DNA of 10,932 bases from Gammaproteobacteria bacterium (GTDB taxonomy: Bacteria > Pseudomonadota > Gammaproteobacteria > Steroidobacterales > Steroidobacteraceae), in NCBI GenBank assembly GCA_003162555.1, contig PMNQ01000252.1:1-10932 (forward strand). Reading direction: 5' to 3'. Numbering within the stretch: the stretch's first letter is position 1; each line of letters starts with the position of its first letter. Position numbers and translations under genes: made by a program. The notes under the pieces were generated by a model that saw nothing but the letters and a program-made list of their open reading frames with translations, was not told where the DNA came from and ran no database searches. Of the stretch, positions 1-10,932 are shown piece after piece.

Positions 1-636
1 GCTTCGGTTCTCCGCGGTGGCAAACACGGACGGGTCGTCACGCCCGGAAAAATCAGCGACAGCATGCTGGTGCAGCGCATCGCGTTGCCGCTCCGCGACG
101 AGCGGGTCATGCCGCCGAGCAGCCAGCCCCCGCTTCCGGTCGACGACGCCACGGTCATCAAACTCTGGATCGCGGCTGGCGCCTCCGGCATCCAGCCGGT
201 GGCCGATTTCCGCACTGCGCCGCGACCCGTCGCGCACGTGACCATTGTCGATGTCGACCCGCGCGCACTCGCCGCGGTGCGCGCGCCTGTCGCCAGCGCG
301 TTGCAAGCCTTGCAGGAGCGCTTCCCGGGTGTCATCGCCTACGAGTCGCGCGGTTCCGCATGGCTGGAACTGGATGCATCGCTCCTCGGCCACAGCTTTG
401 GCGATCAGGAGCTGGCGGCATTCGCACCGCTCCGTGACTTCATCGTGCGGGCGGACGTGTCGGGCACCGCGATCGGCGAACCTTCTGCTGACGCTATCGG
501 CGCGATGAAGAATCTGCGCGTGCTGCGCATGATGGATGTCCATCCGGGTCCGGCACTCGGTGCGCGAGTGCAGGCCTTGCGCCAACACGGCGCGCGGGTC
601 TACGTGGAGCAGGGCGGCGTCGATGACCGGCACTGA
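1..636 (+). CDS. c-type cytochrome domain protein with degenerate LRR tail (5' truncated by window edge)
   Basis: The reading frame is open from base 1, so the true start lies upstream; 211 residues plus the TGA stop are visible. Residues 5-60 (LRGGKHG, then VTPGK, then MPP at 37-39, then a WIAAGA ending) have the pattern of the C-terminal half of the planctomycete-type cytochrome c domain, in which Met37 of MPP would be the distal haem ligand. The CxxCH haem site is expected upstream and cannot be seen. From about residue 95 to 205 the protein has leucine-rich-repeat-like segments: LELDAS, then an LxxFAPL stretch, ADVSGTAI, and MKNLRVLRM, ending in VYVEQ. This resembles the LRR tails of proteins annotated as 'c-type cytochrome domain-containing'. 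The product is probably exported and transfers electrons. It overlaps the following cytochrome b gene by 14 bases, which implies translational coupling. The family call is fairly secure; the substrate and partner are unknown. Confidence 0.72.
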   Translation, partial: ASVLRGGKHGRVVTPGKISDSMLVQRIALPLRDERVMPPSSQPPLPVDDATVIKLWIAAGASGIQPVADFRTAPRPVAHVTIVDVDPRALAAVRAPVASALQALQERFPGVIAYESRGSAWLELDASLLGHSFGDQELAAFAPLRDFIVRADVSGTAIGEPSADAIGAMKNLRVLRMMDVHPGPALGARVQALRQHGARVYVEQGGVDDRH

Positions 637-1315
637 ACCGCAGGGCGCCAGCGCGCCAGCGCAGGATCAGGTGCGCGTCTGGGATGTCCCGGTGCGCGTG
701 TTTCACTGGAGCATCGTCGTTCTGGTCACGCTGTCGTGGGCGTCCGTCGAGAACGGCTACATGAAACTGCACCTCTGGTCCGGTCTCACGCTACTCACGC
801 TGCTGCTGTTTCGCATCGCATGGGGTTTTGTCGGTTCGACCACCGCGCGCTTTGCAGACTTCGCCCAGCGACCTGCGAGCGCACTGGCTTATCTCCGCGC
901 CATGGCGCGCGGCGAGCATCAGCCGCACGCCGGTCACAACCCGGCCGGTGGCTGGATGGTCTTGCTGCTGCTGGCCGTGCTGCTGCTGCAGGCGGCCACC
1001 GGCCTGTTCAGCAACGATGGCGTCCGGTTCAACGGGCCGCTGGCGGCACTGATCAGCTCGCGCCTGTCTGATCGCCTGAGCAGCCTGCACGGCACAATGT
1101 TCAACTTCATCCTGCTGTTGGTGTGGATGCACGTCGTGGCTGTGCTGTACTACCGCTTCGTCCGCGGTGAAAATCTGATCGCTGCGATGATCAGCGGCAG
1201 GAAACCGCGCGACGAGATCAGTGCCCAGGCTGCACTGAAGTTCGTGCCACTGCGCTGGGCTCTGCTGTGCCTGGTGCTGGCGGCGGGCATCGTGTGGTGG
1301 ATCGCGGAATCGTGA
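623..1315 (+). CDS. cytochrome b561-type di-haem membrane protein
   Basis: This 230-residue protein fits the bacterial cytochrome b561 / Ni-hydrogenase b-type cytochrome family (PF01292), which carries electrons across the inner membrane. It opens with VRVWDVPVRVFHW (17-29), the usual start of the family. There are four main hydrophobic segments (about 28-42, 52-72, 111-128 and 157-178) and a C-terminal one at 209-227. Candidate haem ligands are His28, His50, His156 and His170, one for each of four helices, as expected for two bis-His b haems. The ATG at 623 is preferred to an in-frame ATG at 536 because AGGG sits 8 bases upstream and the first residues then match the family; the 536 start would lie deep inside the preceding gene. 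It overlaps the cytochrome c gene by 14 bases and is followed 20 bases later by a Tat-exported propeller. It probably passes electrons between quinone and the periplasmic partners. Confidence 0.85.
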   Translation: MTGTEPQGASAPAQDQVRVWDVPVRVFHWSIVVLVTLSWASVENGYMKLHLWSGLTLLTLLLFRIAWGFVGSTTARFADFAQRPASALAYLRAMARGEHQPHAGHNPAGGWMVLLLLAVLLLQAATGLFSNDGVRFNGPLAALISSRLSDRLSSLHGTMFNFILLLVWMHVVAVLYYRFVRGENLIAAMISGRKPRDEISAQAALKFVPLRWALLCLVLAAGIVWWIAES

Positions 1316-1335
1316 CGATTGCAGAGGAATCAACT

Positions 1336-2436
1336 ATGAACCAGCCCGGCAAACAGCTGTTATCGCGCAGATCGCTGTTGTGGTCGGCGCCGCTGGCAAT
1401 GGCCGGCGCGGCCGCGACGCTGGGGCCACGCGCGGCCGCCTCCGCGGCCGCCGCTGCAACTGCAGACAAGTCCGTGGCCGCTGGCTGCGTTGCGCCCGAG
1501 CTGCTGGGGCAGGGCGCCTTCCAGTATCACGCCAACCGCTTCTGGGGACTGCTGGACCGCAAGCGCTACCCGGTCGCCGACTGCCACGGCATTTGCGAGG
1601 ATCGTGACGGCCGCATCGTGATGCTGACCAACGACACGCACAACAACCTGATCGCCTATACGCACGCGGGGCAATTCCGCGCCGCCTGGGAGAAGCGCTT
1701 TCCGGCAGCGCATGGCCTCGACATTGTCGAACACGGGGATGAAGAGCGGTACTGGATCACCGATCACGACCGGCAGCTGGTATCCATATGCACACCGGAT
1801 GGGCGCGAACTGCGCGTCATTGGCGCCGATGCGGTCAAACAGAAATACGCGGACATCGGGCGCTATCACCCAACCAACAGCGCCACGCTCCCGGACGGGC
1901 AGTGCTACGTGAGCGATGGCTACGGCTCCAGCTACGTGCATCACTTCGATCCGGACGGCCGCTACATTTCGAGCTTTGGCGGCGAGGGCGACGCGCCGGA
2001 GCAGTTGCGCACACCGCACGCCGTGTGGATCGACACGCGCTCGGGCAAGCCGCTACTACTGGTGTGCGATCGCTCGCACGACATGCTGAAGTGGTTTTCC
2101 CTGGCGGGTGAATTTCTCAGGATGGTCGCGGTGCCGGGCTTGCAGCCCAGCAATGTGGCGGCATTCAGCGGCAGATATAGCGATCACCTGGCGGTCTGCG
2201 GTCTCAATGGCATGGTCCTGATCATGGACGGGAGCGATCGCGTGATTTCCTGCGTCGGCGGAGAGCCGCCGGAATACCGTGACGGAAAACTGCAGCCGCT
2301 GTCCGTGTACAACTACACCTTTATTCACCCGCATGACGTGTACGTGGACAAGGCGGGCGCGCTCTACGTCGTGCAGTGGGCGTCGAACCAGACCTATCCG
2401 ATTAAGCTGGAGCTGCTGCAGTCGTTAGTTGGCTAG
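1336..2436 (+). CDS. Tat-exported NHL/PAL-like beta-propeller protein
   Basis: The protein has 366 residues. The start is set by AGAGGA 7 bases upstream of the ATG. Residues 10-15 read SRRSLL, a twin-arginine motif, followed by a hydrophobic Ala-rich stretch to about residue 42; this is a Tat signal, so a folded protein is exported to the periplasm. The mature part shows five to six repeats in which His or Pro-His is followed by a hydrophobic strand and Asp-x-x-Gly: DCHGI (82-86), HGLDI (126-130), HPTNSA (178-183), PHAVWID (227-233) and HPHDVYVD (331-338), with DGYGSSYVHHF at 194-204. This resembles NHL propellers and the lyase domain of peptidyl-glycine amidating enzyme, whose metal is held by His residues at blade starts. 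Eight mature-region cysteines could form disulfides. Enzyme activity is not shown. It is third in a redox gene set, and its 3' end overlaps the opposite-strand racemase by 12 bases. Confidence 0.78.
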   Translation: MNQPGKQLLSRRSLLWSAPLAMAGAAATLGPRAAASAAAAATADKSVAAGCVAPELLGQGAFQYHANRFWGLLDRKRYPVADCHGICEDRDGRIVMLTNDTHNNLIAYTHAGQFRAAWEKRFPAAHGLDIVEHGDEERYWITDHDRQLVSICTPDGRELRVIGADAVKQKYADIGRYHPTNSATLPDGQCYVSDGYGSSYVHHFDPDGRYISSFGGEGDAPEQLRTPHAVWIDTRSGKPLLLVCDRSHDMLKWFSLAGEFLRMVAVPGLQPSNVAAFSGRYSDHLAVCGLNGMVLIMDGSDRVISCVGGEPPEYRDGKLQPLSVYNYTFIHPHDVYVDKAGALYVVQWASNQTYPIKLELLQSLVG

Positions 2437-3117
2437 CGCCCAGTCGACCGCATAGGCCGCGTGCAGGGCCGTGGTGTCGAACACCGGCAGCGCCGAATCC
2501 TTTGGCTCGAGCAGCAGGCTGATTTCGGTGCAGCCGAAGATGACGCCTGCTGCGCCTGCATCCGCCAGCCTGCCGATGATCTGCTGGACTGTGCGGCGCG
2601 ATGCATCGGGCGTCTTTCCCAGGCACAGCTCCTCGAAGATGATGCGGTGTGCTTCGAGTCGATCGGCCTCTCCGGGCACGATCACATCCACGCCCTGCTG
2701 CCGCAGCCGCGCGAGGTAGAAATCCCCTTCCATCGTGAAGCGCGTGGCGAGCAGGCCGACGCGGCCGAGGCCGGCGCCCCTGATGGCCGCGGCCGTCGGG
2801 TCGACGATGTGCAGCAACGGGATCGACAGTGCCGCTTCGATCGCCGGCGCCACCTTGTGCAGCGTATTCGTGCACAGCAAGATCGCCTCGGCGCCGGCCC
2901 GCTCGAGCAGCGCCGCCTCCCGCCCGAGAAACGCGCCCGCATCGTCCCAGCGGTTGGTGCGCATCATGATTTCCAGGTCGGCGAAATCGACGCTCGACAA
3001 CAGGAGTCTGGCCGAGTGCAGCCCGCCGCATCGGTCGCGAACCGCCTCGTTGAGCAGCCGGTAGTACGGCAGCGTCGATTCCCAGCTCATTCCGCCCAGC
3101 AGACCCAGCGTCTTCAT
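2425..3117 (-). CDS. ygeA: YgeA-type broad-spectrum amino-acid racemase (Asp/Glu/hydantoin racemase superfamily)
   Basis: This 230-residue cytoplasmic protein belongs to the aspartate/glutamate racemase superfamily and closely follows E. coli YgeA, which interconverts L- and D-forms of several amino acids without cofactor. It opens with MKTLGLLGGMSWEST, a hallmark of the family. The two catalytic cysteines lie in LCTNT (Cys82) and FGCTE (Cys196), both in the expected context, so the enzyme looks intact. The ATG at 3117 is chosen because the family signature begins there; an upstream GTG- or ATG-started extension has no homology. A purine run (AGGGGG) directly abuts the ATG with no spacer, poor for a Shine-Dalgarno site, and a -10-like box lies just upstream, so the message could be leaderless. 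It is divergent from an FAD amino-acid-type oxidoreductase, which suggests linked D-amino-acid metabolism. The true substrate cannot be read from the sequence. Confidence 0.92.
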   Translation of the reverse strand: MKTLGLLGGMSWESTLPYYRLLNEAVRDRCGGLHSARLLLSSVDFADLEIMMRTNRWDDAGAFLGREAALLERAGAEAILLCTNTLHKVAPAIEAALSIPLLHIVDPTAAAIRGAGLGRVGLLATRFTMEGDFYLARLRQQGVDVIVPGEADRLEAHRIIFEELCLGKTPDASRRTVQQIIGRLADAGAAGVIFGCTEISLLLEPKDSALPVFDTTALHAAYAVDWALAN

Positions 3118-3166
3118 CCCCCTATCATAGGTGCAACGGGCGGTGGCAGAGGGAGCGGCGCGGGGC
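3118..3166. promoter_or_regulatory. divergent promoter gap between racemase and FAD oxidoreductase genes
   Basis: Only 49 bases separate the two start codons. Bases 3121-3131 form an inverted repeat with arms CCTAT and ATAGG around one base. The repeat contains a -10-like hexamer on each strand: TATCAT (3123-3128) reading toward the oxidoreductase and TATGAT (complement of 3124-3129) reading toward the racemase, each 5 of 6 to consensus. I found no convincing -35 box for either. On the minus strand transcription would begin about at the racemase ATG. The purine run at 3148-3155 (AGAGGGAG) is the likely ribosome site of the oxidoreductase, 11 bases before its ATG. Confidence 0.4.
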
Positions 3167-4345
3167 ATGGGCAGGCATTACGACGTCGTGATCGTCGGTG
3201 GCGGCGCGATCGGTTGCTCGATCGCCTACGCGCTGACGACCGAGGCCGGGTTTCGCGGCACGGTGCTCGTCATCGAACGCGACCCGACCTACCAGCGCGC
3301 CTCTTCAGCGTTGTCCGCCAGCGGCATCCGCCAGCAATTCTCGGCGCCGGTCAACATTCGTATTTCCCGCTACGGCATCGAATTCCTCCGCCATGCGGGC
3401 GAACTGCTTGCCTGCGGAGATGACCGGCCGCCGATCAACGTCAACGAGGCCGGATATCTGGTGCTTGCGCCGCCCGAGGGCCTGGAAACGCTGCGGCGCA
3501 ATCATGCGCTGCAGAACAGTCTCGGGGCCCGCATCGCGCTGCTGTCGCCGCAGGAACTGCAGCTGCGGTTTCCGTGGCTGGCAACGGACGATCTGGGCGG
3601 CGGCTGCCTGGGGCTGGAAGGCGAGGGCTGGCTGGACGGCTACCTGCTGTTGCAGGCCTTTCGTAACAAGGCGCGCGCGAATGGCGCGGAGCTGCTGCAC
3701 GACGAAGTCGTCGGCATGGATCGGGGCGCCGGCCGCATAGACGCACTGCGTCTGGCCAGTGGCGAGCGCATCGGCGCCGGCATGGTCATCAACGCGGCTG
3801 GCCCGCACGCCCGCCAGGTCGCGGCCATGGCTGGCGTGGTGCTGCCGGTCGAAGCGCGCAAGCGCAATGTGTTCGTCGTCTCCTGTGCCGAAGCAATACC
3901 GGGCTGCCCGCTGGTCTGCGATGACTCAGGCGCCTGGTTCCGTCCCGAGGGCGCGCACTTCATCTGCGGCTGCGCGCCGGACCGAAGCAACGATCGAGAG
4001 AATTTCGACCTGGAGCCTGACCACGCATTCTTCGAGCAGTCGGTGTGGCCCGCGCTCGCGGCGCGGGTGCCGGCGTTTGCGGCGTTGCGCGTGACCGGCG
4101 CCTGGGCGGGACACTACGAGACCAACACTTTTGATCAAAATGGCATCGTGGGACTGCACCCTGAAGTGCGCAACTTCGTGCTCGCGAACGGCTTCAGCGG
4201 CCACGGGCTACAGCAATCGCCCGCAGTCGGACGCGCTGTCGCCGAGCTGATCGCGTACGGCAATTACCGTACGCTGGATCTATCGGAGCTCTGCTTCGAG
4301 CGCATCGCCGCCGGCCGGCCGCTCAGTGAACTGGGGATTTACTGA
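3167..4345 (+). CDS. FOXRED1-like FAD-dependent oxidoreductase (DAO family)
   Basis: This 392-residue flavoprotein belongs to the D-amino-acid oxidase / sarcosine oxidase family (PF01266). The N-terminal Rossmann motif VVIVGGGAIG (7-16) and Glu37 at the end of the second strand (VIERD) bind FAD. SALSASGIRQQFS (47-59) and the C-terminal GFSGHGLQQSP (342-352) are typical of the branch that includes human FOXRED1; the W-A-G-x-Y-x-x-N-T-F-D-Q-N-G segment just before it fits the same branch. There is no signal peptide, so it is cytoplasmic or membrane-associated. Family members oxidise amines such as sarcosine, dimethylglycine or D-amino acids; FOXRED1 itself aids complex I assembly. The ATG at 3167 is preferred to a GTG at 3131: the Rossmann strand begins right after it, AGGGAG precedes it, and the GTG overlaps the putative -10. 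It is divergent from a racemase. Confidence 0.88.
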   Translation: MGRHYDVVIVGGGAIGCSIAYALTTEAGFRGTVLVIERDPTYQRASSALSASGIRQQFSAPVNIRISRYGIEFLRHAGELLACGDDRPPINVNEAGYLVLAPPEGLETLRRNHALQNSLGARIALLSPQELQLRFPWLATDDLGGGCLGLEGEGWLDGYLLLQAFRNKARANGAELLHDEVVGMDRGAGRIDALRLASGERIGAGMVINAAGPHARQVAAMAGVVLPVEARKRNVFVVSCAEAIPGCPLVCDDSGAWFRPEGAHFICGCAPDRSNDRENFDLEPDHAFFEQSVWPALAARVPAFAALRVTGAWAGHYETNTFDQNGIVGLHPEVRNFVLANGFSGHGLQQSPAVGRAVAELIAYGNYRTLDLSELCFERIAAGRPLSELGIY

Positions 4346-4384
4346 TCTGGGCCGGCGCGGGGCGGAACGTCGATGCCTGGCCGG

Positions 4385-4798
4385 TCAGGCCGTGGCGCGC
4401 GACGAGCGTTGCAAGGCGTACGCGCCACTGCCCAGTGCGGCGACCGCGATGCTCACCACGAGCAGGAACGCGGGATATTCCCAGCCACCGCCCTTGGCGC
4501 TGAACACCCAGCCGTTGGCGGCGTGCACCCAGATGATCGCGCCCAGCAGGGTAGGGGTGAGCGCCAGCGCGACCAGCCGCGTCTGCACGCCCAGCAGCAG
4601 CAGTGCGCCGCCGACGGCCTCGCCGATCGCGGTGGCGTAGCCCAGCCAGCCGGGCAGGCCGATCGACACGAAATAGCCAGCCGTGCCGGCCAGGCCGAAA
4701 GTCAGTATCTTGAGCAGCAGTCCGTGCGACAGGTACATGAGACCGAGGCTGAGGCGCAGCAGCGTGGCGGTCAATTCGGTAATGCGGGCCTGATTCAC
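4385..4798 (-). CDS. DoxX-family membrane protein
   Basis: The product is a 137-residue integral membrane protein of the DoxX family (PF07681). Four hydrophobic segments are visible, roughly at residues 10-32, 40-60, 62-92 and 106-128. Family marks are RLSLGLMYLSHGLLLK (15-30), with the Arg-Leu-x-Leu-Gly and His-Gly pair, and GEAVGGALLLLG (59-70). DoxX proteins are often induced by quinone, thiol or oxidative stress and can couple to redox enzymes; the exact chemistry of this one is unknown. The start codon is GTG at 4798-4796, fixed by AGGAG 6 bases upstream. It is divergent from a MarR-family regulator across an AT-rich gap full of repeats, so it is the probable target of that regulator. 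Its 3' end faces the oxidoreductase gene across a 39-base gap with no terminator that I can see. Confidence 0.87.
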   Translation of the reverse strand: MNQARITELTATLLRLSLGLMYLSHGLLLKILTFGLAGTAGYFVSIGLPGWLGYATAIGEAVGGALLLLGVQTRLVALALTPTLLGAIIWVHAANGWVFSAKGGGWEYPAFLLVVSIAVAALGSGAYALQRSSRATA

Positions 4799-4804
4799 GG
4801 TTGG

Positions 4805-4809
4805 CTCCT
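4805..4809 (-). promoter_or_regulatory. Shine-Dalgarno site of the DoxX gene
   Basis: The complement reads AGGAG, 6 bases before a GTG codon at 4798. It decides the GTG start of the DoxX-family gene. Confidence 0.75.
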
Positions 4810-4894
4810 GATGGTTGCAAATGCATCAATATGAATGCAATTGCATTTAAACACGGATTTTGATGTAATTGCATGCATCAGCTCATACGCCGCC
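4810..4894. promoter_or_regulatory. AT-rich divergent control region and probable MarR operator
   Basis: This gap between the DoxX gene (-) and the MarR gene (+) is clearly poorer in GC than its surroundings and is packed with related elements. They are TTGCAAATGCATCAA (4815-4829), a perfect palindrome at 4834-4847, and the imperfect inverted repeat TGATG...CATCA at 4861-4880 with TGCATGCA inside it. AATTGCAT occurs twice, 28 bases apart (4839 and 4867), and ATGCATCA twice, 52 bases apart (4821 and 4873). MarR proteins bind inverted repeats of this size and commonly control themselves and a divergent neighbour. A possible promoter for the regulator is TTGCAT (4842-4847), a 16-base spacer, and TGTAAT (4864-4869, 5 of 6 to the -10 consensus). 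It would place the transcript start near 4876, inside the repeats. Confidence 0.65.
4834..4847. repeat. perfect 14-base palindrome AATGCAATTGCATT
   Basis: The 14 bases equal their own reverse complement. The palindrome is the strongest symmetric element of the doxX-marR gap and the best candidate for the core operator; the half-site AATTGCAT recurs at 4867-4874. Confidence 0.8.
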
Positions 4895-5362
4895 ATGACC
4901 AGCAATCCCACCAGCACCAGTCCCAGCAGCACGGTAATCCGGGCGTGGTCGCGGCTTGCCAAGGTGCAGCAGCTCGCCGCCGACGCCATCGAGCAGCGGC
5001 TCAAGGCGGCGGACCTGCCGCCACTCGCCTGGTACGACGCGCTGCTCGAACTGGAGCGCGCGGGGCCCGCAGGCTTAAGGCCGTTTGAGCTGGAGCGCGA
5101 ACTGCTGCTGTCGCAGTGCAATCTCTCTCGCCTGATCGACCGGCTGGAAAAGGAAGACTACGTGGAGCGGCAGGCCTGCCAGGACGACGGGCGCGGCCAG
5201 GTCATCGCCATCACCGCGGCCGGCCGCGCTATCCGCCGTCGCATGTGGGGCGTGTATGGTCCTGCTATCCAGAGCGTGATTGGCGCGCACTTGAGTTCCG
5301 GCCAGGCCGCGGCGCTCGATACCGCGCTCGGCACGCTGATATCCGGCGCCAGACCTGCGTAA
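4895..5362 (+). CDS. MarR-family transcriptional regulator
   Basis: This is a 155-residue winged-helix repressor of the MarR family, which usually releases DNA on binding a small phenolic or oxidised ligand. Visible parts are the N-terminal dimer helix (about 13-37), the helix-turn-helix with recognition helix around LLSQCNLSRLIDRLEKEDYV (71-90), and the wing DDGRGQVIAITAAG (97-110), which matches the family's D-x-R-[GA]...-T-x-x-G signature. Cys75 sits at the recognition helix and Cys95 just before the wing; redox sensing is possible but not shown. I chose the ATG at 4895. The in-frame ATG at 4835 lies inside the operator palindrome and would add 20 residues without family similarity. Neither start has a good Shine-Dalgarno site. 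The gene is divergent from DoxX, its likely target, and is followed 16 bases later by an M20 peptidase on the same strand. Confidence 0.88.
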   Translation: MTSNPTSTSPSSTVIRAWSRLAKVQQLAADAIEQRLKAADLPPLAWYDALLELERAGPAGLRPFELERELLLSQCNLSRLIDRLEKEDYVERQACQDDGRGQVIAITAAGRAIRRRMWGVYGPAIQSVIGAHLSSGQAAALDTALGTLISGARPA

Positions 5363-5378
5363 AGCTAACAAAAACAAA

Positions 5379-6719
5379 ATGATAAATAGAAAAGCTCTAC
5401 TGAATTATCGCACAGGGATTTTCACCCTGTGCGCGCTGGCGCTCGCCGCTATGCTTCCTGCCGCGCCAGCCAGCGTGAGCCTGTCGCGCGAAGAGCAACG
5501 CATCGTCAGCGCCGCGGCCGCGGAGAATGACCGATCGATTGCGCTGCTCGAGACGCTGGTCAACATCAACAGCGGCACCATGAATTTCGCCGGCGTCGAA
5601 CGCGTGGGCCGCCGCATGATGGCGGAGCTGGAGCCGCTCGGCTTCAAGGTGGAGTGGCGGCCGATGTCCGCCGTCGGGCGCGCGGGCGTCGTGATCGCCA
5701 CGCACCACGCCGCAGGCCCGGGCAGGCGCCTGCTGTTGATCGGGCATCTCGACACGGTGTTCGAGCAGGACAGTCCGTTCCAGCGATTCGAGCGGCGCGG
5801 CAACATTGCCGAAGGTCCGGGTACCAATGACATGAAGGACGGCCTGGTGATCATGCTCGGCGCGCTGCGCGCACTGCACACGGCCGGCGCACTTTCGGGT
5901 GCGGACGTGACGATCGTGCTGAGCGGCGATGAGGAAGATGCCGGCAGCCCGCTCTCGCGGGCCCGCGCCGACCTGATCGAGGCGGCCGGCCACGCCGACG
6001 CAGCGCTGGAGTTCGAGGCGCTCGCCACCGAGAACGGTCATGACATGGGCACCATCGCGCGCCGCAGCGCCATCGACTGGACGCTGCGCACCACGGCGCA
6101 GTCGGGCCATTCCTCCGGCATTTTCTCGGCAGAATCCGGATTTGGCGCGAACTACGAGCTGACGCGCATCCTCGACACTTTCCGGCGCGAGCTGCGCGAG
6201 CCGAATGCCACCTACAACGTCGGCCTGCTGCTGGGCGGCGCGGGCGCAGCAATCAACGCCGACGGCGTCAGCGGCGCGGCCAGCGGCAAGAGCAACGTGA
6301 TTGCGGCACAGGGCGTCGCGAAAGGCGACTTGCGCACACTCAGCAACGCGCAGACCGAACGGCTGATGGCGCGCATGCGAGCCATCGTCGCCGATCATCT
6401 GCCTGGAACGGGCGCGACGATCGAATTCGAACCCGGGTATCCCGCGATGGCGCCGACGAACGGCAATCGCGCGCTGCTGGCGCGCCTCAACGAGATCAAC
6501 GCAGCGCTGGGCCTCGAGCCAATGGCCGCGCTCGACCCGCTGCAGCGGGGCGCCGGCGACATCTCATTCGTGGCCGACAAAGTGGACTGCCTGGTCGGCT
6601 TTGGAGCCGTGGGGCAGGGCAGCCACGCACCGGGCGAGACTGTGGACCTCAGCAGCTTCGATCGTCAGCTCAAGCGCACCGCGTTGCTGATCGAGCGCCT
6701 GTCGCGCACACCGCGCTGA
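5379..6719 (+). CDS. exported M20 family metallopeptidase (glutamate carboxypeptidase-like)
   Basis: This 446-residue zinc peptidase of family M20, closest in layout to carboxypeptidase G2, releases C-terminal residues or hydrolyses N-acyl amino acids. An N-terminal signal peptide is seen: basic residues at 4, 5 and 11, a hydrophobic run at 13-28, and likely cleavage near residue 31, so it acts in the periplasm. Active-site residues by analogy are His123 and Asp125 (GHLDT), bridging Asp151 (GTND), catalytic Glu185 and ligand Glu186 (GDEED), Asp207 (HADAAL) and His416 (GSHAPGE). All are present, so it should be active. The dimerisation domain spans about 230-345, with QSGHSSG at 241-247. The ATG at 5379 has no Shine-Dalgarno site; its leader is a run of A with a few C. 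It lies 16 bases after the MarR gene and may be cotranscribed with it. The natural substrate is unknown. Confidence 0.9.
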   Translation: MINRKALLNYRTGIFTLCALALAAMLPAAPASVSLSREEQRIVSAAAAENDRSIALLETLVNINSGTMNFAGVERVGRRMMAELEPLGFKVEWRPMSAVGRAGVVIATHHAAGPGRRLLLIGHLDTVFEQDSPFQRFERRGNIAEGPGTNDMKDGLVIMLGALRALHTAGALSGADVTIVLSGDEEDAGSPLSRARADLIEAAGHADAALEFEALATENGHDMGTIARRSAIDWTLRTTAQSGHSSGIFSAESGFGANYELTRILDTFRRELREPNATYNVGLLLGGAGAAINADGVSGAASGKSNVIAAQGVAKGDLRTLSNAQTERLMARMRAIVADHLPGTGATIEFEPGYPAMAPTNGNRALLARLNEINAALGLEPMAALDPLQRGAGDISFVADKVDCLVGFGAVGQGSHAPGETVDLSSFDRQLKRTALLIERLSRTPR

Positions 6720-6741
6720 TCGCGGCCGCCAATTGGGTGCG

Positions 6742-7857
6742 CTAGTCGCGCGCGCTGACGCGGTAAGTGGCGGCGGACAACCACTCGGGATTGATCTCCA
6801 CGCCCCAGCCCGGCGCGGCCGGTATGTTCACCTTGCCGTCGCGGATTGTAAACGGATCGCCCAGGAACAAGCCCTGCTGCCAGGGGTAGTAGTCCGCGCC
6901 CTCGATCGAGAACTCAAGGTATTTGCCGGCATTGGGAATCGCGCCGAGCAGATGCATCGTGCAGATCGTCACCAGCGACAGGTTGGCGCTGTGCGGGGTG
7001 CAGGGAATGCCGGCCGCGGCAGCCATGCGTGCGACCTCGAGCGTGCGCCACAGGCCACCCATGTACATCACGTCCGGTTGCACGATGTCGACGGCACGGG
7101 TTTCGATCATGCGCGCCCAGGTGGCGAGGTCCCAGTCCTGTTCGCCGCCGGTGACGTCGATGTTCAGCGCGTCGGCGACGATGCGCGTTTCCTCGAGTTT
7201 CCAGTACGGGCAGGGCTCTTCGTAGTGGCCAATACCCTCGGATTCCAGCAATTTCCCGATTTCGATGGCCCGTTTTGGCGAGTAGCCGCTGTTCGCATCG
7301 ACCAGCTTGCCGATGCCGTCGCCGAGCGCGCGCGCGACCGTGGGCACGATCTCTTCGGTGCGGCCCGGCCACTCGTCGACATCGCGCCCGCATTCGGCGG
7401 CCACGCGCCACTTGAAGGCATCAAAGCCCTTGTCGTCGCGCAGCCGCAGGAAGCGCGCCGCTTCGGCTTGCGGCGTGATGTCGCGTTTCATCGAGGAGGC
7501 GTAGGCACGGAGCGGCCGCGCTTTGCCGCCGAGCAGTTCGACCACCGGCCTGCTCTCGAGCTTGCCACGCAGATCCCACAGCGCGGTGTCGAGCCCCGCC
7601 AGCGCGCGGCAGCGGTAACTGCCCGGGAATTTGTGTTCGCGCCTTTCGATCAGGTCGATGAGCGCGGGGATGTCGAAAGCGTCGGCGCCCAGCGCCCACG
7701 GCGCAACCTGGCGATGGAAAACGCTGGCCGTGATGTCGGCGTTGTAAGTCGAGGTCTGGCCCCAGCCGACCGCACCGCTGTCGGTCGTGAGCCGCACAAA
7801 GCAGACGAACTCGTTGGCGAAGGTCTCGAGGCGCGAGATGCGGGGCGCGGCGTGCAT
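6742..7857 (-). CDS. enolase-superfamily protein, mandelate racemase/muconate lactonizing type
   Basis: The 371-residue product has the two-part fold of this superfamily: an N-terminal capping domain (about 1-115) and a TIM barrel. Magnesium ligands by pattern are Asp187 (VDANSGYS), Glu213/214 (HYEEP) and Glu239 (GGEQ). A His-Asp dyad of the mandelate racemase subgroup is suggested by Asp262 (QPDVMYMGG) and His289 (TPHSAN), with Glu315 (YLEFS) as the usual barrel-end acid. At the second barrel strand, where many members have Lys-x-Lys, the sequence is Lys149-Trp-Arg151. Members usually dehydrate or epimerise sugar acids; I cannot name the substrate. The ATG follows the acuI-like stop by 8 bases, and its ribosome site overlaps that stop, so the two genes form an operon. 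The 3' end faces the M20 peptidase gene across 22 bases. Confidence 0.87.
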
Positions 7858-7863
7858 CGTTAG

Positions 7864-7867
7864 CCCT
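7864..7867 (-). promoter_or_regulatory. Shine-Dalgarno site overlapping the upstream stop codon
   Basis: The complement reads AGGG. Its AG belongs to the TAG stop of the acuI-like gene, and it lies 6 bases before the ATG of the enolase-superfamily gene. This geometry supports coupled translation of the two genes. Confidence 0.6.
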
Positions 7868-8852
7868 AGCCGTTGACGTCGACGACCACGCGGCCGCGCA
7901 CCTGGCCCGCGACAATGGCCTGCGCGAGGCGCGGCAGATCCTCGAGCCGCGCATCGATGCTGATTGCCTCGAGCTTGGCGACTGGCAGGTCAGTCTGCAG
8001 CCGCGTCCAGGCGGCCAGCCGCCGGGCAGTGGGGCACATGACCGAGTCGATGCCCAGCAGATTCACGCCGCGCAGGATGAAGGGTATGACCGTGTGCTCG
8101 AGCTTGCTGCCGCCAGCAAGACCGACGGCGGCGACAGAGCCCGCATAGCGCGTCTGCGCGAGCACGCGCGCCAGCGTATTGCCGCCGACCGAATCGATGC
8201 AGGCCGCCCAACGCTCCGATTCCAGCGGCCGCTTGGCGGGATCGGCAAACGCCGAGCGATCGATGATCTGGCTTGCACCGAGGCTACGCAGGAAATCGTG
8301 CGCATCGGCGCGGCCGGTGGAAGCGGTCACCTGGTAACCACGCTGCGCGAGAATGGCGGTCGCGACCGAGCCGACGCCGCCGGCGGCCCCGGTGACCAGC
8401 AGTTCACCCGAGTGCGGGCCAATGCCTTGCGCTTCCAGCGCCAGCACTGCGAGCATTGCGGTGAGCCCAGCCGTGCCGATGACCATGGCCTGGCGCGCAC
8501 TGAGACCGGCGGGGAGCGGCACCAGCCATTCGCCATTCACCTGCGCCAGCTGCGCGAATCCGCCCCACTGCACTTCGCCGACTCGCCATCCGGTCAGCAC
8601 CACCTTGTCGCCGGGCTTCCAGGCGGGATTGCGGCTCTCGAGTACCGTACCGGCGAAATCGATACCGGGCACGTGCGGGTAGTTGCGCACCAGCCCGCCG
8701 AGGCCGTTGATGATCAGCCCGTCCTTGTAGTTGAGCGACGAGCGCTCGACGGCGACGCGCACATCGCCCGCGGGCAGCTGGGCCTCATCAAGCTCCTGAA
8801 CCGCCGCAATCACTGCGCCGCTGCGATTGTCCGCCACCAATGCCCTGAACAT
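7866..8852 (-). CDS. acuI: AcuI/YhdH-type NADPH-dependent acrylyl-CoA reductase (MDR family)
   Basis: This 328-residue cytoplasmic medium-chain dehydrogenase/reductase follows the AcuI/YhdH branch along its whole length (E. coli YhdH is 324 residues). AcuI reduces toxic acryloyl-CoA to propionyl-CoA with NADPH. Branch marks are SSLNYKDGL (38-46), PGIDFAGTV (62-70), LTGWRVGE (86-93) and WGGFAQ (96-101). The nucleotide-binding motif is [11 protein letters not shown] (154-164), followed by GLAGG (234-238) and the [14 protein letters not shown] segment (248-261). Zinc-binding cysteines are absent, as expected for this branch. The ATG at 8852 has GGGAG 8 bases upstream and begins the family match; a longer frame reaching toward 9161 would run into tadA and has no homology. 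It is the first gene of a two-gene operon. The branch is secure; physiological substrate is inferred from family knowledge only. Confidence 0.9.
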
Positions 8853-8970
8853 CTGCTGCGCTCCCGTATACCAGGCTGTCGCGGACGGCAAGATAAGCCA
8901 TTTTCCGATCCCATGCGCAATACATGTTTGCGCCTGTGCGACCATAGAGTCCCAAGGGGCTATGCACGCG
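8853..8970. promoter_or_regulatory. divergent gap between acuI-like gene and tadA
   Basis: These 118 bases must hold promoters for both directions. The most regular element is an inverted repeat at 8915-8933, arms GCGCAA and TTGCGC around 7 bases, which could be an operator. I found no promoter hexamers good enough to place. A ribosome site for tadA (AAGGGG, 8954-8959) lies at the right end. Confidence 0.4.
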
Positions 8971-9423
8971 ATGGGCACAGACAAGGCTTTCATGGAACTG
9001 GCGCTCGAGCAGGCGCGGCGCGCCCGCGACGCGCGCGAAGTGCCCGTGGGCGCCGTACTGGTGCGCGCCGGGCAGGTCATCGCTACCGGCGCCAACCGGC
9101 CCATCGGCGGCTGCGATCCGACCGCGCACGCAGAGATCGAGGCGCTGCGCGCCGGCGCCATCGCGCTGGGGAGCTATCGACTGAACGCCACGGAGCTGTA
9201 CGTGACGCTCGAACCCTGCCTGATGTGCGCCGCCGCGATCGTGCATGCGCGCGTGCGGCGCGTGGTATTCGGGGCCTGGGATCCGCGCGCCGGCGCGGCC
9301 GGCAGCCTGATCGATGCTTTCGCGCTACCCGCCCTCAATCACCGCGTCGACGTGTTCGGCGGCGTGCTGCAGGAAGAGTGCGCAGCGCTGCTAACGGAAT
9401 TTTTCGAACCACGTCGGCGCTAG
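8971..9423 (+). CDS. tadA: tRNA-specific adenosine deaminase TadA
   Basis: TadA deaminates adenosine 34 of tRNA-Arg(ACG) to inosine and is usually essential. The 150-residue protein carries the cytidine/deoxycytidylate deaminase zinc site: TAHAEI (51-56), with zinc ligand His53 and catalytic Glu55, and EPCLMC (81-86), with ligands Cys83 and Cys86. REVPVGAVL (22-30), NRPIGGCDPTAHAE (42-55) and GAAGSLIDAF (108-117), followed by NHRV, are diagnostic of TadA among deaminases. The ATG at 8971 has AAGGGG 11 bases upstream; an ATG at 8962 is in frame, 2 bases from that run and so less well spaced, but it would add only three residues and cannot be excluded. An upstream ATG at 8827 is unlikely because it precedes the ribosome site and adds unrelated sequence. 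The 3' end overlaps mltF on the other strand by 33 bases. Confidence 0.95.
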   Translation: MGTDKAFMELALEQARRARDAREVPVGAVLVRAGQVIATGANRPIGGCDPTAHAEIEALRAGAIALGSYRLNATELYVTLEPCLMCAAAIVHARVRRVVFGAWDPRAGAAGSLIDAFALPALNHRVDVFGGVLQEECAALLTEFFEPRRR

Positions 9424-10848
9424 CCGCGATGGCGCGGGCACAGGTGTGAGTGCTGGCGCGGACATCAACACCGGCGCCGGCGCCAGTCCCGTGGGACGCC
9501 CATCGCCGTACCATTCGAGCACCGCGAGATAGCCGCGCACCTGTTCGACGAAGCGCACCGGCTCCCAGCCGCGCGCATAGCCGCGCCGCGCGAGGTTGTA
9601 CCAGCGCTCCTGCGCGAGCCAGGGCAGCACCTGGCTGACATCGGTCCACGAATCCGGGTTCTTGCCCTGTGTCTGCGCGAGGATGCGCGCGTCCTCGAGA
9701 TGGCCGAAGCCGACGTTGTACGCCGCGAGGGCCAGCCAGGTGCGGTCCGGCTCGGCGATGCGCGCGGGAATCGTCTGCAGCATCTGCGCCAGATAGGCCG
9801 CGCCGCCGGCAATGTTCTGCGCCGCGTCGGTCCGGTCGACGACGCCCATTGCCCTGGCGGTGGAGGGCGTCAGCATCATGATGCCAGCCGCGCCGTCGCC
9901 GGAAACGGCGTGATCGTCCCAATGCGATTCCTGGTAACCGACCGCAGCCAACAACCGCCAGTCGACGGCCTGGCTGCTGGCCGCCTGCGTGAATTCGTCG
10001 CGCAACTCCGGCAGGCGCTTGGTGATGTCGTCCTGAAAGCGGCGTGCTTCCTGATATTCGAAATCGCCCGCCTCGGCTTCGGCATCGTGCGTCAGGTGCA
10101 GCAGCAGTCCGGTGTCGCGCGCGTTGGCGAAAAAGCGGTTCGCGGCGTCGCGCAGGTCGAGCGCCGAGCGGCGCACCAGCCACTGCACTGCGCGTGGATC
10201 GGGCAATGTGAAGGCCACAGATACATCCGGATACAGGTGGCGCGCGTACGAGAATTCGCTCCGGTCGATGATCGCGTAATCGGCATCGCCGGTGTTGACC
10301 CAGTCGAGCGGGTCGGCCTGCTCGCGCGGCAGCTCGGTCCAGGTCAGGTACGGCGCGCCGCTCCCGCGCAAACCGCGCAGCAGTTCGAGCTGCGGACTGC
10401 CTTCGCGCGCAACGACGCGTGTGCCGCCGAGCCCGGAAATATTGTGTATCGACGCCAGCCCGCGGCGCTGCACGACCAGCTGCTGGATTTCACGGTAATT
10501 CGCGGTGGCGAGTCCCGCGCGCTTCCAGCTGTCATCCACGGTCAATTCGGCGGCGACGATGTCGACGCGCCCCTCGGCCAGCATGTCGCGCAAACTGGCG
10601 CGATCTCGCGCCGGAACGATGACCAGCTGCACGCCCAGACTGTCGGCGAAAGCGTGCGCGAGCCGGTATTCAAAACCCTGCGGGCCGTGCGCGCCCAGGT
10701 AGTAACTGGTGGGTTCGTTGATGGTCGCGACGCGCAGCTCGCCGTGTGAGTAGATGCGCGCCAGCCCGTTGGGCTCGCCGTCGCATGCGGCCAGTGCCAT
10801 GCACGCGAGCGACGCGAAAACGCCCAGTCTGGTCAATCCTCGCGCCAC
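9391..10848 (-). CDS. mltF: membrane-bound lytic murein transglycosylase F
   Basis: MltF cleaves the glycan strands of peptidoglycan, forming 1,6-anhydro ends. The 485-residue product begins with a lipoprotein signal: a basic start, a hydrophobic run and LAAC with Cys22 as lipidation site. Residues about 35-250 form a periplasmic binding protein-like domain (SBP family 3), typically regulatory. From about 285 to 450 is the SLT domain, with catalytic Glu307 in GYQESHW, then GAAGIMMLTPSTA (319-331) and LAAYNVGFGH (374-383). The last 30 residues are rich in Pro and Ala. The residue after Cys22 is Asp, which in enterobacteria keeps lipoproteins in the inner membrane. The start is GTG, fixed by GAGG 7 bases upstream. 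It converges on tadA with overlapping 3' ends and diverges from a tRNA-Ser gene. Confidence 0.94.
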   Translation of the reverse strand: MARGLTRLGVFASLACMALAACDGEPNGLARIYSHGELRVATINEPTSYYLGAHGPQGFEYRLAHAFADSLGVQLVIVPARDRASLRDMLAEGRVDIVAAELTVDDSWKRAGLATANYREIQQLVVQRRGLASIHNISGLGGTRVVAREGSPQLELLRGLRGSGAPYLTWTELPREQADPLDWVNTGDADYAIIDRSEFSYARHLYPDVSVAFTLPDPRAVQWLVRRSALDLRDAANRFFANARDTGLLLHLTHDAEAEAGDFEYQEARRFQDDITKRLPELRDEFTQAASSQAVDWRLLAAVGYQESHWDDHAVSGDGAAGIMMLTPSTARAMGVVDRTDAAQNIAGGAAYLAQMLQTIPARIAEPDRTWLALAAYNVGFGHLEDARILAQTQGKNPDSWTDVSQVLPWLAQERWYNLARRGYARGWEPVRFVEQVRGYLAVLEWYGDGRPTGLAPAPVLMSAPALTPVPAPSRLAPTWFEKFR

Positions 10849-10855
10849 AGGACAT

Positions 10856-10859
10856 CCTC
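10856..10859 (-). promoter_or_regulatory. Shine-Dalgarno site of mltF
   Basis: The complement reads GAGG, 7 bases before GTG at 10848. No in-frame ATG lies nearby, so this site decides the GTG start of mltF. Confidence 0.7.
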
Positions 10860-10878
10860 ACGGACCGGTCGGTTCAGC

Positions 10879-10884
10879 TAGAAT
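10879..10884 (+). promoter_or_regulatory. -10 box for the tRNA-Ser gene
   Basis: TAGAAT matches the -10 consensus at 5 of 6 positions and lies 25 bases before the tRNA. The bases after it (AGCAGCTCGC) form a GC-rich discriminator, as is usual for growth-controlled stable RNA promoters. No good -35 hexamer is found at 16-18 bases upstream, so the call rests on the -10 and position. Confidence 0.5.
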
Positions 10885-10909
10885 AGCAGCTCGCAAAAAG
10901 GCCAGTTCA

Positions 10910-10932
10910 GGAGAGGTACCGAAGTGGTCATA
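10910..10932 (+). tRNA. tRNA-Ser, 5' part (cut by window edge)
   Basis: The 23 visible bases begin GGAGAGG (acceptor strand), then TA, then CCGAAGTGGTCATA, the first half of a D-arm. This start is typical of bacterial serine tRNAs. The anticodon, variable arm and 3' end lie outside the window, so the isoacceptor cannot be named, and a leucine tRNA is not fully excluded. Confidence 0.75.

Follow-up and report, generated by a model that had tools for sequence, protein, structure and literature searches.

The DNA considered here (the window) comprises bases 1–10932 of the 11,151-base contig C65 (PMNQ01000252.1), taken from a Steroidobacteraceae genome of 2.9 Mb that is 72% complete; base 1 is the contig end. 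The window opens with three same-strand genes (Table 1), which encode a PSCyt1-LRR cytochrome cut by the contig edge (gene 1), a membrane cytochrome b561 (gene 2) and a propeller resembling peptidyl-alpha-hydroxyglycine lyase (PAL; gene 3). An initial annotation had placed these open reading frames (ORFs) at the same positions, with the same overlap and gap, and had taken the trio for one periplasmic electron-transfer system. That the genes form one functional unit is borne out by conserved order, by fusions of b561 with PSCyt1-LRR and by recurrence of the set, with its genes rearranged, in another bacterial order; the trio itself, however, is only the tail of a unit built around PSD1 and DUF1501. 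Our reading, held tentatively, is that genes 1–3 close a five-gene operon for the periplasmic oxidation of a glycan-derived substrate, with electrons passed to the quinone pool and the propeller serving as a lyase. Sequence comparison strongly supports the membership of the window genes in this module.

Upstream of base 1, where the contig stops, relatives show PSD1 and DUF1501 genes 5′ of the trio, and the DUF1501 partner guessed at the outset is indeed present in their full operon. The order there is PSCyt1-PSCyt2-PSD1 (DUF1549/DUF1553), DUF1501, PSCyt1-LRR, b561 and propeller, all five genes lying on the same strand in the genomes G077 and G009. The spacings along the five G077 genes are +5, −4, −14, and +13 bases. 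Its PSD1 protein (1030 residues, two CxxCH motifs) scores above the cut-offs for PSD1 (300.7 bits), PSCyt2 (277.4 bits), and PSCyt1 (55.7 bits), and its DUF1501 protein (507 residues; 498.5 bits, above cut-off) carries the motif TRRHFL, resembling a twin-arginine translocation (Tat) signal. On JANYHD010000029.1 (L002), a contig from the metagenome-assembled genome of a relative, DUF1501 is identical to that of G077 and the propeller is 82–83% identical to the window's. In G029, which belongs to another genus, the propeller is 53–55% identical and the first four genes keep their order on one strand, with the propeller at their 3′ end on the opposite strand (convergent), after GH94-like and GH2 (GalB) genes. 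In the window's own genome (G000), a PSD1 gene with 82% identity lies at one end of contig C82; no DUF1501 of the operon clade was found in this genome, which carries two remote DUF1501 genes elsewhere, and an assembly gap presumably hides the operon's DUF1501 together with the 5′ portion of gene 1.

Searching with the G077 DUF1501 protein (E ≤ 1e-60) brought up 23 loci, spread over 14 of the 217 genomes of the family; all 23 were read with home-made profiles, some built from sequences of these very loci. PSD1 adjoins DUF1501 in 22, the exception (L037) stopping at a contig end. A PSCyt1-LRR protein is encoded in nine: five with a separate b561 (G077, G009, G029, G866:C355, and G048), two fused to b561 (G047 and G010) and two fused to a DUF2231-like part (G131 and G143). 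The other 14 have no PSCyt1-LRR in the stretch covered, several of them stopping at contig ends. The order PSD1-DUF1501-PSCyt1-LRR-b561 is identical in all five close DUF1501 loci; the propeller is next to this four-gene block in G077, G009, and G029, and next to b561 in the window. Counted by genome, the propeller (E ≤ 1e-20, a distant match in G121 left out) occurs in six of the 217, the close DUF1501 in five and both in four (hypergeometric probability 8e-7, kinship ignored). The more distant propeller of G121 is divergent from a PSD1-DUF1501 pair. Confinement to close relatives had been named as what would speak against the trio as a system: the strict trio, that is PSCyt1-LRR, a separate b561 and the propeller side by side, was found only in the window's own family (window, G077, G009, and G029), whereas the wider set, in which PSD1, DUF1501 and the propeller go with a PSCyt1-LRR protein bearing a DUF2231-like membrane part, also occurs in Catenovulum. 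A second DUF1501/PSD1 subtype was seen as well, with a short PSD1 (779–873 residues, one CxxCH) at L088, L104, and L105, a b561 at these three loci and at L098, and a small CxxCH cytochrome at L088 and L104, the latter being a PF01322 cytochrome c′. At L100 (4517–13173) two large PSD1 genes flank one DUF1501, the second cut by the contig end.

Table 1. Features of the window around the three leading genes.
Feature	Position	Strand	Description
Gene 1	1–636	+	ORF open at contig edge; C-terminal 211 residues of PSCyt1-LRR cytochrome
Gene 2	623–1315	+	ATG start; membrane cytochrome b561 (PF01292), 230 residues
Gene 3	1336–2436	+	ATG start; PAL-like NHL-type propeller, 366 residues, Tat-like signal
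Overlap of genes 1 and 2	623–636	+	14 bases; likewise 14 bases in G077
Gap between genes 2 and 3	1316–1335	+	20 bases
Tat signal region of propeller	1360–1467 (approximate)	+	LLSRRSLLWSAPLAMAGAAATL...; read by eye
Asp/Glu racemase-like gene	2425–3093	−	Tail-to-tail with propeller, 3′ ends overlapping by 12 bases

The product of gene 1 is predicted to be a membrane-anchored c-type cytochrome with one heme, whose N-terminal anchor and CxxCH motif would lie beyond the contig end. Its score against the PSCyt1 Pfam model (18.4 bits for the part in the window) stays under the 22-bit cut-off because the contig stops short of the half of the domain that carries CxxCH; the intact G077 orthologue (309 residues, one CxxCH) reaches 43.7 bits, above the cut-off. 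Gene 1 is 71% identical to the G077 gene directly after DUF1501, can be aligned with the intact orthologues of G077, G009, and G029, and is matched over residues 1–178 by a profile made from six distant PSCyt1-LRR proteins (profile positions 36–224, domain E 3.3e-22 in a four-sequence search). These comparisons place it in the PSCyt/PSD1-DUF1501 unit. The earlier description as an LRR-tailed cytochrome c stands as to family, through the intact orthologue and the distant profile, but the tail is degenerate: no Pfam LRR is found in the intact G077 orthologue at E 0.01. Among 72,556 plasmid records a PSCyt1-LRR query had four matches, namely three PSCyt1-LRR genes adjoining PSD1/DUF1501 and the PSCyt1 domain of a PSD1 protein; three of the four matches span the heme domain only.

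Genes 1 and 2 are linked by the two relatives, G047 and G010, in which b561 and PSCyt1-LRR form a single protein beside DUF1501/PSD1, and their overlap makes translational coupling likely. A search with the fusion against 299 genomes of the phylum matched 208, almost only through generic b561, and was uninformative. In G131, G143, Catenovulum, and Haliscomenobacter, PSCyt1-LRR is fused to a DUF2231-like membrane part, the Pfam DUF2231 scores in G131 and G143 being 17.3 and 25.2 bits, under the 26.4-bit cut-off. Across an alignment of five sequences (L034, L035, L082, L086, and L087), this part has conserved histidines in GRFH, at a position five residues farther along, in the middle of the protein, and in GH and THG, a pattern that might be that of a b-type cytochrome.

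Gene 2 is a membrane cytochrome b561, as initially annotated (PF01292, 84.8 bits against a cut-off of 30.1). Its residues H28, H50, H156, and H170, which we take to be the heme ligands, are invariant in the window sequence and four aligned relatives, and the proposed link to the quinone pool through b561 is likely. Assignment as a hydrogenase b subunit was rejected (TIGR02125, 27.3 bits against a cut-off of 121.5). Relatives of this b561 occur in 151 plasmid records, and 8 of the 15 rows among the matches listed overlap an annotated cytochrome c′ gene. In G009 a second b561-family gene, matching the gene 2 profile weakly, lies directly 3′ of the propeller (L032, 13052–13630).

Gene 3 matches propeller and NHL Pfam models below their cut-offs only. 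Among solved structures it matches both NHL propellers (E 1.7e-12) and PAL (E 5.2e-9), in keeping with the first description. The NHL matches fall in several registers. The PAL match is collinear and aligns residues 115–346 of the window propeller (P0003) with 83–308 of 3fvz, and 115–278 with 574–738 of 5wm0, two chains whose numbering is offset by a constant 491. Counting from the match ends and assuming no intervening gap, H126 aligns with 585, R246 with 706, and H333 with 786; a sub-profile fits Y196 on 654, and H228 would fall on 690. We take 5wm0 to follow the numbering of rat PAM, and positions 585, 654, 690, 706, and 786 to be the PAL Zn ligands and catalytic residues; H126, Y196, H228, R246, and H333 would then correspond to the PAL catalytic set, of Zn(His3)-Tyr-Arg type. 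H126, Y196, H228, and H333 are kept in 10 of 10 aligned propellers (the window's and nine relatives, 26–83% identity) and R246 in nine of them. Excerpts of the PAL literature describe a six-bladed propeller with one Zn (PMC6529398) and a catalytic dyad of Tyr651 and Arg703 in human numbering (PMC10303134). Assignment to the scytonemin protein ScyF was rejected (32.4 of 350 bits). Tat export, also claimed at the outset, agrees with the Tat-like SRRSLLW read by eye and with the similar starts of relatives. By the same inspection, Tat-like signals are present in six propellers next to the module, in one of them only when an in-frame start upstream of the annotated one is used, and absent from three propellers adjoining glycyl-radical or PhyH enzymes.

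As for the two upstream proteins, PSD1 and DUF1501, Pfam detects no oxygenase domain in either, and the only solved structures related to PSD1 at E 0.05 match its cytochrome c domain. An alignment of ten DUF1501 proteins shows D357, H359, E405, D426, H427, D466, D478, and H479 conserved, a set that would fit metal binding. All five DUF1501 matches in the PDB below E 0.05 belong, as we take it, to the alkaline-phosphatase superfamily.

Outside the family the set is rare and patchy, as the few matches in class genomes indicate: among 369 genomes of the class the propeller was found in the window genome only (E ≤ 1e-25), and DUF1501 in one, G326 (E ≤ 1e-80), whose 5 kb contig holds PSD1 and two DUF1501 genes with no propeller. 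In the plasmid records the propeller query matched 26; the best 10 of the 26 were listed and six regions examined, and a second query gave another Catenovulum copy. One strain of Catenovulum adriaticum (Alteromonadales) has the set on two plasmids in two gene orders, PSD1-DUF1501-propeller-cytochrome inside a GH43/GH115/GH98 cluster, and cytochrome-propeller-PSD1-DUF1501 followed by fucP, and this occurrence of the same members in different orders argues for a functional link. The cytochrome in each case is a PSCyt1-LRR protein that also has a DUF2231-like part, above the Pfam cut-off for the first only (28.1 bits). Haliscomenobacter (Bacteroidota) has cytochrome-DUF1501-PSD1 with no propeller. 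A pectin cluster of Saccharobesus contains PSD1-DUF1501 along with two small c-type cytochromes and a b561 that shares 38% identity with gene 2, and Singulisphaera has PSD1-DUF1501 pairs. No relatives were found in 37 stretches of viral contigs.

Carbohydrate genes accompany several of these loci. Besides the G029 neighbors, GH88 and pectate lyase genes stand beside a PSD1-DUF1501-b561 set without propeller, and the GH2 glycosidase gene on contig C82 of the window genome (L042, 4–1848, minus strand), about 3 kb from the PSD1 gene, is consistent with a sugar context. Members of the propeller clade also keep other company: in G866, FA_hydroxylase, a 3-keto-disaccharide hydrolase and a GFO/IDH protein whose nearest model is that of the BT_2158 glycoside 3-dehydrogenase (125 bits against a cut-off of 750); in Catenovulum and Persicobacter, PhyH dioxygenases; in Moraxella and Acinetobacter plasmids and again in Persicobacter, glycyl-radical enzymes. 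G077 has a PhyH gene about 10 kb upstream of its propeller, and the Mesorhizobium relative lies beside ectoine genes with no oxidizing or radical partner. This list, which is short (about ten loci) and not a random sample, suggests that the propeller is a lyase acting after an oxidizing step and located where that step happens. In the plasmids of Moraxella osloensis TT16 (p4; L080, 4390–8948) and Acinetobacter towneri (L085), which are mobilizable and have Tn3 transposase genes nearby, the propeller relative stands beside a PFL-family glycyl-radical enzyme and its activase; no NCBIfam model matched the L080 enzyme above cut-off.

On the 3′ side, the racemase-like gene marks the end of the operon. 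It was rejected as an operon member, being on the opposite strand and not directly beside the propeller in G009 or G029, as was a downstream oxidoreductase, likewise not directly beside the propeller in those two genomes. Farther along the window lies a divergent pair, a DoxX-family membrane protein (4388–4798, minus strand) and a MarR-type regulator (4835–5362, plus strand).

How might these proteins work together? The protein families, the gene order and its conservation, the fusions, the CxxCH and conserved histidine sites, and the signal-like N-termini can all be read from the sequences, and from them we infer the chemistry. The operon probably oxidizes a sugar outside the inner membrane and feeds the released electrons into the respiratory chain. 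DUF1501, exported through Tat, and the heme c protein PSD1 would jointly oxidize a glycan-derived substrate in the periplasm; electrons would run from the PSD1 hemes through the membrane-anchored PSCyt1-LRR heme to b561 and the quinone pool; and the propeller, with its PAL-type Zn(His3)-Tyr-Arg site, would act as a lyase that cleaves the oxidized intermediate, whether keto or hydroxylated. The four-gene part would be the core, and the propeller an exchangeable lyase joined to several kinds of oxidizing enzyme. If so, the operon would add an oxidative route for glycan breakdown.

Several observations weigh against this proposal. The direction of electron flow and the substrate are deduced only. 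DUF1501 matches the alkaline-phosphatase superfamily weakly (E 0.019–0.047), and we know of no redox chemistry in that superfamily; the PSD1/DUF1501 literature gives no tested activity in the portions available to us. Of the genes neighboring the set in the window, G077, G009, and G048, most are not sugar genes. The propeller is dispensable: the four-gene core of G048 comes with no propeller match, and G866 has its propeller on a different contig among other partners, the DUF1501 locus there ending inside b561. The AlphaFold model of the propeller, made from two input sequences (the window protein and that of L002), has a pLDDT of 36 and gives no reliable fold. Nor are the PAL residues specific, since among 16 paralogous propellers of family genomes (L007–L022), chosen by similarity to the window propeller and so leaning towards PAL-like proteins, the H126, H228, and R246 columns are kept in all 16, Tyr196 in 14, and H333 in all five whose alignment reaches it. 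The Zn(His3)-Tyr-Arg site marks a broad bacterial PAL-like group and not the operon, and many such propellers with the residue set kept occur in the window's family.

Among other explanations, the flow of electrons could be reversed: quinol would reduce b561 and the PSCyt1-LRR heme and so feed PSD1/DUF1501 as a hydroxylase using O2 or peroxide, the propeller then cleaving the hydroxylated carbon, by analogy with PHM and PAL in peptide amidation. The retained PAL residues and the unrelated C–H oxidizing or radical neighbors of the propeller clade would suit this, but it is unlikely given the lack of a Pfam oxygenase domain in PSD1 and DUF1501, the lack of a solved PSD1 relative beyond the cytochrome c domain, and the chance that some neighbors, at about ten loci examined, are coincidental. 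The same analogy underlies a wider idea, itself doubtful: that PSD1/DUF1501 and the cytochromes are a new class of quinone-wired periplasmic C–H oxidizing enzyme (dehydrogenase or hydroxylase), acting on a sugar or glycan carbon in PHM-PAL fashion, while the propeller clade is a modular lyase for unrelated oxidizers (PSD1/DUF1501, FA_hydroxylase, PhyH, and glycyl-radical enzymes), exported or cytosolic like its partner. The DUF2231-like part that replaces b561 would then be an unrecognized quinone-reactive membrane cytochrome.

The propeller might also be catalytically inert, an NHL scaffold binding glycan or protein, with the cytochromes serving PSD1/DUF1501 alone. Its best PDB sequence matches are indeed NHL propellers of TRIM-type proteins, which presumably bind, and most DUF1501 loci lack a propeller in the stretch covered; the invariance of the His3-Tyr set in ten sequences down to 26% identity and the placement of these residues on PAL catalytic residues by the match ends nevertheless make this improbable. 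Still less credit is given to a loose packing of the operon, in which b561 and PSCyt1 would be a general quinone-cytochrome c exchange module that happens to lie beside PSD1/DUF1501 and the propeller. The wide occurrence of gene 2 relatives on plasmids, 8 of the 15 rows listed overlapping a cytochrome c′ gene, and the b561 with two small cytochromes at L088 fit such a module. Against it, PSCyt1-LRR is found only beside PSD1/DUF1501 (three plasmid records and nine family loci, the latter selected through DUF1501), and it also occurs fused to a membrane part, in some cases b561 and in others DUF2231-like.

Known systems resemble the proposed periplasmic oxidation and cleavage in part. In the PHM-PAL pair of PAM the likeness lies in the propeller residues that match the PAL Zn and Tyr-Arg site; the difference is that the match to PAL is remote, that the residue signature is common to nearly all paralogues checked, and that none of the five operon genes has a PHM-like domain by Pfam. 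With cytochrome b561-cytochrome c′ pairs the operon shares a b561, gene 2 showing 37.7–38.2% identity to b561 proteins matched in regions that overlap annotated cytochrome c′ genes, but the partner of gene 2 is PSCyt1-LRR. In excerpts of work on Caulobacter (PMC9007349), the lactose 3-dehydrogenase LacABC and a DUF1080 3-ketolactose hydrolase provide a precedent for oxidizing and then cleaving in the periplasm: a membrane-bound, three-part sugar dehydrogenase acts there, followed by cleavage of the oxidized glycoside. Compared by Pfam domains, the five operon genes have no GMC or gluconate-dehydrogenase-type domain, and cleavage, assigned to DUF1080 in those excerpts, is here proposed for the propeller.

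No report joining a PAL-like propeller, b561 and planctomycete-type cytochromes was found in the open-access literature. Planctomycetes also carry many genes of such families. The nearest relatives of the operon are the planctomycete-type PSCyt/PSD1 units, seen here as Singulisphaera pairs and described, in the sections available, for freshwater Verrucomicrobia of the PVC (Planctomycetes-Verrucomicrobia-Chlamydiae) bacteria, where PSCyt2 genes usually adjoin an unknown gene family, nothing is reported to be known of what these genes do, and roles involving carbohydrates are proposed (PMC5615132). The adjoining family, left unnamed there, is very likely DUF1501. These units share with the operon PSCyt1-PSCyt2-PSD1 beside a second unknown family (DUF1501 in our loci), carbohydrate-gene contexts and an unknown function. 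The operon is a proteobacterial variant of this type of unit, and the trio is not a separate system. Its compact form, with a b561, a lyase-like propeller and sugar-degradation neighbors in several relatives, offers a small test case, for instance in Catenovulum, for the function of PSD1 and DUF1501; it differs from the planctomycete-type units in being proteobacterial and in adding PSCyt1-LRR, a separate b561 and a PAL-like propeller.

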